A stretch of DNA of 35,138 nt from Geodermatophilus sp. DF01-2. GTDB taxonomy: Bacteria > Actinomycetota > Actinomycetes > Mycobacteriales > Geodermatophilaceae. Below, one piece after another: positions 30,628-31,699 of this stretch. A program made the translations under genes and the position numbers. Location: contig NZ_SPQN01000048.1 of the NCBI RefSeq assembly GCF_004571065.1, positions 1 to 35,138 of the forward strand, written 5' to 3'. The notes beneath the pieces are model-generated. The model saw nothing but the letters and a program-made list of their open reading frames with translations, made no database searches and had not been told where the DNA came from. Numbering within the stretch: the first letter of the stretch is position 1; every line of letters starts with the position of its first letter.

Positions 30628-30633
30628 CACTTC

Positions 30634-30693
30634 GCGAGATCTGCACACTCGGGGTTCTCAGTCACCCGAACGGCCCGAGTGTGCAGATCTCGC
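30634..30693. repeat. 60-bp palindrome P1 after ftsX
   Basis: GCGAGATCTGCACACTCGGG (30634-30653) pairs perfectly with 30674-30693; adding C30633/G30694 makes 21 bp. The 20-nt loop allows a further GTTC/GAAC stem. It starts 6 nt after the ftsX stop and could act as its terminator. Confidence 0.85.
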
Positions 30694-30748
30694 GCGGGCC
30701 TGTGGACAGCGTCGGCGGGTTCGGCGCCCTTCCGGCCAGGCTGTCCGC

Positions 30749-31624
30749 ATGCCGAGACGACCAGCGGCCAGCCGTCTGACCGGTCCCGCCACGCGCAGGA
30801 TGGCCCTCGAGGCCGGTATCAGCGACGAGCAGCTGAGGCAGCGGGACGTCGTCCGGCTGTCCCGGGACACGTACCTCCCGAGGGCCACTGCCGCCGACCT
30901 CGGTGCCCGCATGGACGCGGTGCTGATGACGGCGCCCGACGGAGCCGTCATCAGCCACCGGACCGCTGCGGCGGTGTGGGGTCTGGCCATCCCGCTGCAG
31001 CCGGACGACGACCGGGTGCACCTGACCGTGGCGACGGGGTCGGCTGTTCGGGCGCGGAGGGACCGGTGCATCCACCGGAGCCCGCTGACTCCCGACGAGG
31101 TCACGAGCCGGCACCGCCTCCCGATCACGACACCGGCGCGCACATGGCGGGATCTCGCCGCCACGCTCGACCGAGCGCCTCTGCTGGCGATCACCGACCA
31201 GCTCCTGAGGGTCCACTGCAGCGCTGCCGACCTCGCTCGGCAACTGGCGCGCCGACCCTCCGGTCGCGGTGCCGCTCGAGCGCGTGACGTCCTCCCGGTC
31301 GCCGATCCGCGGTCGGAGTCCCCCATGGAGTCGGTGCTGCGCTGGTTGATCCACGCGGCCGGCCTGACCGCGCCCGAGCTGCAGTTCGTCGTCCGTTCCG
31401 ACGGTGGGGTGTTCCTCGGGCGGGCCGACCTTGCGTGGCCGGACAGGAAGGTCCTGGTCGAGTTCGACGGAGACGGGCACCGGGCACGGGAGGTCTTCGT
31501 CAAGGACCTGCGCCGCCAGAACGACCTGGTGGCGGCCGGCTGGACCGTCCTCCGGTTCAGCTCGGCCGACGTCCTGGGCAGGCCCGGCGAGGTGATCGCG
31601 GCGATCCGGGCGGCCCTCCGGTGA
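30749..31624 (+). CDS. AbiEi-like winged-helix / DUF559 (Vsr-like, PD-(D/E)XK) nuclease-type protein
   Basis: The 291-aa protein has an N-terminal part similar to AbiEi-type proteins (ATRRMALEAGISDEQLRQRDVVRLSRDTYLP; ISHRTAAAVWGLAIP; ITTPARTWRDLA). The C-terminal part fits DUF559: SPMESVLRWLI (Glu194), GRADLAWPDRKVLVEFDGDGHR (Asp227, Glu238, Asp240) and VKDLRRQNDLVAAGWTVLRFSS. These residues suit a PD-(D/E)XK or Vsr-like nuclease core. The true substrate is unknown. The usual AbiEii toxin partner is absent. ATG 30749 is the simplest start, although no strong ribosome site is seen. Its stop touches palindrome P2. Confidence 0.8.
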   Translation: MPRRPAASRLTGPATRRMALEAGISDEQLRQRDVVRLSRDTYLPRATAADLGARMDAVLMTAPDGAVISHRTAAAVWGLAIPLQPDDDRVHLTVATGSAVRARRDRCIHRSPLTPDEVTSRHRLPITTPARTWRDLAATLDRAPLLAITDQLLRVHCSAADLARQLARRPSGRGAARARDVLPVADPRSESPMESVLRWLIHAAGLTAPELQFVVRSDGGVFLGRADLAWPDRKVLVEFDGDGHRAREVFVKDLRRQNDLVAAGWTVLRFSSADVLGRPGEVIAAIRAALR

Positions 31625-31684
31625 GCGAGATCTGCACACTCGGGGCTCTCAGCCGCCCGAACGGCCCGAATGTGCAGATCTCGC
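31625..31684. repeat. 60-bp palindrome P2 after the DUF559-type gene
   Basis: Begins directly after the stop codon. GCGAGATCTGCACACTCGGG (31625-31644) pairs with 31665-31684 with one mismatch (A at 31670). It differs from P1 at four positions, three of them in the loop region. Confidence 0.85.
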
Positions 31685-31699
31685 GGGATGGGGCGCCGG

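Follow-up and report, generated by a model that had tools for sequence, protein, structure and literature searches.

What is a nuclease-like gene doing between two near-identical palindromes in the gap between ftsX and smpB? In the window, i.e. the whole stretch of 35,138 nucleotides analysed here, the order is ftsE, ftsX, palindrome, nuclease gene, palindrome, smpB, the three named genes being what we take them to be from their sequences. The left palindrome (30633..30694), of a type with the outer arm GAGATCTGCACA that we call class 1, lies five bases past the ftsX stop codon and has fully complementary arms of 21 bases with 20 between them. The nuclease gene encodes 291 amino acids on the forward strand (30749..31624, stop included), and the right palindrome (31625..31685) begins directly at the end of its stop codon, with arms of 20 bases that are 95% complementary and again 20 between (31625-31684/85). 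The first-pass annotation had described this arrangement, and coordinates, repeat search and open reading frame calls confirm it; the near-identity of the palindromes also stands, although the count changes from the claimed 56 of 60 to 57 of 61, i.e. 93% identity over 61 nucleotides of direct repeats lying 991 apart. Folded as single-stranded DNA, all four palindrome strands do better than any of 200 shuffled versions (z -6.7 to -9.7). A chance repeat was rejected on these z-scores, on the presence of the arm pair at six places in the genome and on the strict pattern being found in 0 of 395 other actinobacterial genomes. A phage or plasmid passenger was rejected on a search that gave no phage-record match and seven plasmid records, every one below 60% identity; a known RNA family on an Rfam search, whose three matches (E up to 1) fell well short of their gathering scores; and T-run terminators on a scan that found none here.

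The protein has the two parts proposed from the first reading. Its AbiEi-like N-terminal region, which is presumably DNA-binding (residues 8-170; 30770..31258, forward strand), is matched by PADLOC (6.9e-18) and in its fold, and Pfam gives no AbiEi match for the 291-residue protein. At the C terminus, Pfam matches DUF559 (7.7e-9; residues 227-290; 31427..31618, forward strand); in the AlphaFold model (pLDDT 93.6, pTM 0.89), the nuclease domain starts earlier, near E194. The sole structure matched by the model at E up to 0.001 is Rv2827c (1zel, E 3e-4); the next nuclease match is the catalytic domain of I-Bth0305I (3r3p), with a TM score of 0.71 by target and an E of 0.02, above the usual limit. 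A comparison of sequence profiles puts 3hrl (1e-9) closest among solved structures. Among the 30 members of an alignment of the family (A1), 28 match the AbiEi-type model and 25 match DUF559. E194, D227, D253 and R256 are invariant across 56 aligned sequences, and E238, D240 and H244 are conserved in at least 90% of them; with its presumed catalytic residues thus conserved, the nuclease looks intact. No HUH transposase match was found by profiles or fold, AbiEi and DUF559 standing in its place. The unit holds no methylase or partner gene, and no AbiEii toxin gene lies beside the nuclease gene in the window, its neighbours being ftsX and smpB.

The palindromes are not confined to this gap. A search of the same genome found 17 arm-like places at up to three mismatches, 12 of which (at most two mismatches) make six palindromes: the window's pair plus four that stand alone on other contigs, the further copies that the first reading had suggested looking for. 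One of these (G000:C159:12138) agrees with the right palindrome (31625-31652) not just in the arm but throughout the left half (GAGATCTGCACACTCGGGGCTCTCAGCC), which looks like recent copying. Across 26 genomes of the genus, a strict class-1 pattern, which counts gene-flanking copies too, occurs 15, 11, 10, 9, 6, 6 and 6 times in seven genomes, once in four and never in fifteen, and reversed-pattern controls were zero in all 26. The strict pattern undercounts: BLAST finds imperfect copies as well, among others in G007 and G010, where no class-1 gene was seen. GATCATG palindromes, several classes taken together, reach up to 44 per genome. In the species tree, the genome studied here branches next to a clade of nine genomes, among them five of the other six that are rich in class 1; support for this placement is moderate (81/96). 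At 36 of 42 class-1 sites from five genomes, any overlap of the palindrome with a called gene is at most 20 bp, and solo copies lie mostly in short intergenic spacers; neighbouring genes, as called by a simple codon-based caller, are in tandem at 27 sites, convergent at 11 and divergent at 4. Among 49 class-1 sites, 29 fall into nine groups common to two to five species. Stem pairs of class 1 covary (0.133 vs 0.088 in shuffles, 0/500 as high), the outer 12 pairs being fixed by the search pattern and hence invariant.

Do the copies depend on the gene? A class-1 gene is present in five genomes, which carry 6, 6, 9, 10 and 15 copies (p 3e-4 vs the other 21). Two genomes, however, keep class-1 palindromes without such a gene, namely G041 with 11 copies (best homologue 35%) and G015 with 6 (best homologue 55%), so copies outlive the gene or do not need it. 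Palindromes occurring broadly with no tie to the gene had been named as an observation against the first-pass reading: outside the genus the strict pattern is found in none of 395 sampled actinobacterial genomes, and the objection does not hold, although G041 and G015 speak against a strict dependence on the gene.

Comparison of orthologous gaps reveals filled, solo and palindrome-free sites. The ftsX-smpB junction could be read in 24 of 25 congeners (in L074, ftsX was not found), and none of the 24 has a nuclease protein match there; the gene standing at this place without palindromes, the other observation named against the first-pass reading, is therefore seen in no readable congener. A single class-1 palindrome occupies the gap in three of them, a GATCATG palindrome in two and another palindrome near ftsX in four; no palindrome was seen in fifteen, for seven of which the reading covered just the two ends of a long gap. 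A second locus, followed by what we take to be a purS-like gene, has both flanks in common for 18 of 21 close homologues (L010, L022-L041), including L010 from the same genome as the window, which is 55% identical to the window's nuclease. There, class-1 palindrome, gene and palindrome follow each other in G024, G009 and G003; G006 (L025) has the same layout with an eroded right copy, through which the gene reads on; and G041 has a single class-1 palindrome at exactly the same place. The stop codons of L022, L023 and L024 run into the right palindrome, whose opening bases form their end (GGTGAGATC, GATGAGATC). We also compared two solo sites of the genome studied here with the congeners: class 1 is present in none of the 19 (of 25) readable at site A and in none of the 25 (of 25) readable at site B. 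At site A, hairpins with a different sequence are present in several congeners, and the three readings that give a gap of zero are unsafe; at site B, most share a terminator-like hairpin.

Is this one curious locus or a habit of the family? The same genome holds thirteen homologues of the nuclease gene, at least one homologue is present in 38 of 41 genomes searched (its own counted), and the family occurs in 163 of 396 sampled actinobacterial genomes (E up to 1e-10, own genome counted). We collected 152 genes flanked by 150 bases or more, 134 of them with distinct proteins; the scan of named genomes was seeded with a closer alignment (A2), and Geodermatophilaceae are over-represented in the named set. 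Limits for hairpins (13) and matches (20) were fixed after the first loci had been inspected, with identical limits for the controls, and some automatic ends of reading frames are wrong (L025, L034) and count as misses where kept. At least 13 is reached by the left hairpin of 98 homologues, by the right one of 94 and on both sides by 76, compared with 23 of 267 control stretches. For 90 of the 134 homologues (67%), the flank on the left matches the one on the right with a score of at least 20, compared with 11 of 477 control genes (2.3%), which are called genes of other kinds. Single hairpins are common beside these control genes (left 138, right 219, both 46, of 477), so it is the left-right match more than the hairpin that sets the family apart. 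Much of the 11 control matches comes from site A, where a lipoprotein-like gene has matching flanks in several congeners (L282, L284, L285, L287 and neighbours). Matched flanks were found for 8/13 genes in the genome itself, 19/25 in congeners, 4/5 in the same order, 32/39 in named Geodermatophilaceae, 5/15 in Micromonosporaceae, 19/28 in the phylum sample and 3/9 in other named genomes. The remaining 44 homologues stay under the limit, and in L015 and L018 the palindromes on the two sides differ.

The type of palindrome follows the protein. Pairs of different family genes reach the match score in 0.07% of cases at 30-35% protein identity, 0.04% at 35-40% and 0.15% at 40-50%, and then in 7.9% at 50-60%, 26% at 60-70%, 55% at 70-80% and 86% at 80-90%; the value below 30% identity is 2.1%, in a bin that includes pairs without a long alignment. 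When 53 close homologues are placed on a tree, the types of arm mostly agree with the clades (GAGATCTGCACA types, as in the window, and GAGATCTGCGATCTCG, GAGATCGGCGGTCTCG, GAGATCACGTGATCTCG and CGAACTCGTGG types), and for 48 genes protein identity correlates with palindrome similarity (Mantel rho 0.43; as high in 0/2000 permutations). A second subfamily repeats the pattern: GATCATGG types accompany the seven proteins whose identity to L012 over their length is 72% or more, and at 58-67% identity most, not all, have GATCATCGG types, while four other members have a quite different palindrome type. GATCATG palindromes number 15-44 in those seven genomes vs 0-20 in the other 19 (p 8e-5), with G041 and G008, whose matches are partial (70-71%), placed among the 19. 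The co-divergence is partly plain common descent. Related enzymes in other actinobacteria, often paired with matching palindromes of their own, suggest a so far unrecognised partnership between enzyme and palindrome. The loops of GATCATG/GATCATC palindromes (L335-L350) contain a recurring, asymmetric GACACGCG..GACACGCCG stretch, which gives these palindromes a direction. A palindrome of Micromonospora costi (L142, TGATCATGAAGTTATTGCCCC) resembles the GATCATG classes of Geodermatophilaceae, which hints at an old shared class.

A further element accompanies the genes whatever their palindrome type. Within 110 bp before the start, TGTGGA or TCCACA occurs in 102 of 134 genes, vs 4 of 267 control stretches, and in 79 of the 102 the core lies 45-49 bp ahead of the start; both directions occur (73 and 29), the commoner one reading CTGTGGAC(A/G)(A/G)CG. 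In the window, the motif is CTGTGGACAGCG (30700..30711, forward strand), at a distance from the start that is fixed in most homologues. It resembles what we take to be the actinobacterial DnaA box, TTGTCCACA, and a link to replication would be a guess.

How can these observations be brought together? The explanation that we favour, with a probability of roughly 60%, is that the unit represents a REP-like element in its gene-bearing form, with a restriction-fold nuclease instead of an HUH/RAYT transposase as the dedicated enzyme. The unit would consist of a palindrome, a short spacer, the nuclease gene and a second palindrome. Its protein would read the cognate palindrome, most likely as a dimer via the AbiEi-type winged helix, either on duplex DNA or on a hairpin or cruciform formed when the strands part, and the Vsr/EDxHD-like domain would cut at the palindrome. 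Repair of the cut may then copy palindromes, and rarely the gene, into other intergenic spacers, and recombination between the flanking palindromes could delete the gene and leave one palindrome behind. The data ask for protein-dependent recognition of, or copying between, unlinked palindromes, for which the simplest cause would be that the protein binds the palindrome; the conserved nuclease domain suggests cutting, in which case repair would copy sequence between sites. As we infer cleavage and active mobilisation, the unit is not established as ‘selfish’. The idea of a REP-like family tied to a dedicated nuclease, a RAYT/REP analogue with a different enzyme, one of the two that the first-pass annotation had put forward, gains support from the dispersed solo palindromes, the flanked genes, the protein-specific palindromes and the solo or palindrome-free sites in relatives. 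We consider the chances evenly balanced that this holds for a phylum-wide class, in which restriction-fold nucleases instead of transposases would maintain and spread populations of long palindromes, with many specificities side by side and nucleases naturally retargeted to different palindromes of about 60 bp.

Other explanations have to be weighed against the same facts. A homing-type selfish gene, for which solo palindromes would be empty targets that suffer double-strand breaks and receive the gene by repair from a flanked copy, would account for the likeness of the nuclease end to a homing endonuclease domain and for the solo and filled sites at two loci. But the presumed target is not split by the gene, which has an intact palindrome on either side, so that the enzyme would cut the very copy that encodes it; and only one class-1 gene was seen per bearing genome in spite of up to 15 palindromes. 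As the gene neither interrupts this target nor fills the many solo copies, we regard homing proper as unlikely. Slightly less credit still goes to a regulator, i.e. an AbiEi-type DNA-binding protein controlling its own and other genes through palindromic operators, with a nuclease domain that serves otherwise. The binding of AbiEi antitoxins to inverted repeats in the promoter of their own operon speaks for such a role, as do the AbiEi-like N terminus and a palindrome preceding the gene, speaks for such a role, but the second palindrome sits past the stop codon, solo sites lie between convergent genes at 11 of 42 places and between divergent ones at just 4, and the presumed catalytic residues are conserved.

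It could also be that the palindromes are plain terminators working in both directions, that gene conversion keeps them alike and that they flank this gene family by chance. They stand close to gene ends, and class-1 copies occur where relatives have terminator-like hairpins, one solo site replacing a conserved hairpin of this kind, so a plain terminator role is possible. As a full account it is about as improbable as the regulator, since left-right matching separates family genes from control genes (67% vs 2.3%), palindrome type follows the protein and the T-run scan was negative at the palindromes. Least probable is a role of the nuclease in defence, with palindromes that would mark host DNA or protect it: a few family members weakly match anti-phage nuclease models, but the unit comes without methylase or partner gene, and phage records gave no match.

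Finally, we would like to place the REP-like nuclease unit among known systems. To our knowledge, the dedicated enzymes of REP palindromes are RAYTs of the HUH type. Our literature search, which covered mainly openly accessible papers, found no description of such a nuclease-palindrome system, and among papers mentioning DUF559 none was about palindromes, going by titles and the beginnings of abstracts. The catalytic domain resembles in fold that of the EDxHD homing endonuclease I-Bth0305I, a likeness that covers this domain and not the DNA-binding parts; the reported dimerisation of I-Bth0305I on a target of nearly 60 bp (PMC3943268) can be likened to the long palindromes here. Homing endonucleases, however, insert into their target, whereas here the gene lies between two whole palindrome copies. 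AbiEi antitoxins and Rv2827c (1zel) share the N-terminal region by profile and fold; different are the added nuclease domain and, in the window, the missing adjoining AbiEii toxin gene. CGTC REPs are likewise dispersed palindromes, but they are reported to have no dedicated transposase (PMC3733652). The closest parallel is REP/REPIN-RAYT (TnpAREP, REPtron), with which the unit described here has in common dispersed extragenic palindromes (36 of 42 sites here), a dedicated gene with adjoining copies (90 of 134 here), class-specific pairing and copies persisting without the gene. RAYTs are described as single-copy and vertically inherited, and genomes with a RAYT as holding more REPINs (PMC8049555); the RAYT itself is given as an HUH tyrosine enzyme and REPs as carrying a GTAG tag (PMC8266576; PMC3733652). 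Here, by contrast, a DUF559 nuclease with an AbiEi-like region takes the place of the HUH (Y1) tyrosine transposase, and the palindromes are about 56-66 bp long, with no GTAG seen by eye at the palindrome foot, either beside both window palindromes or in the flanks of class-1 sites in ortholog groups. With the HUH enzyme and the GTAG tag absent, the nuclease-palindrome system works like REP/RAYT but is not a member. If true, proteins named just DUF559 or AbiEi-like would gain a role, many protein-palindrome pairs would be at hand from which recognition rules could be read, and a second, unrelated enzyme would share the REP-like genomic habit, a way of life that would then have arisen more than once.
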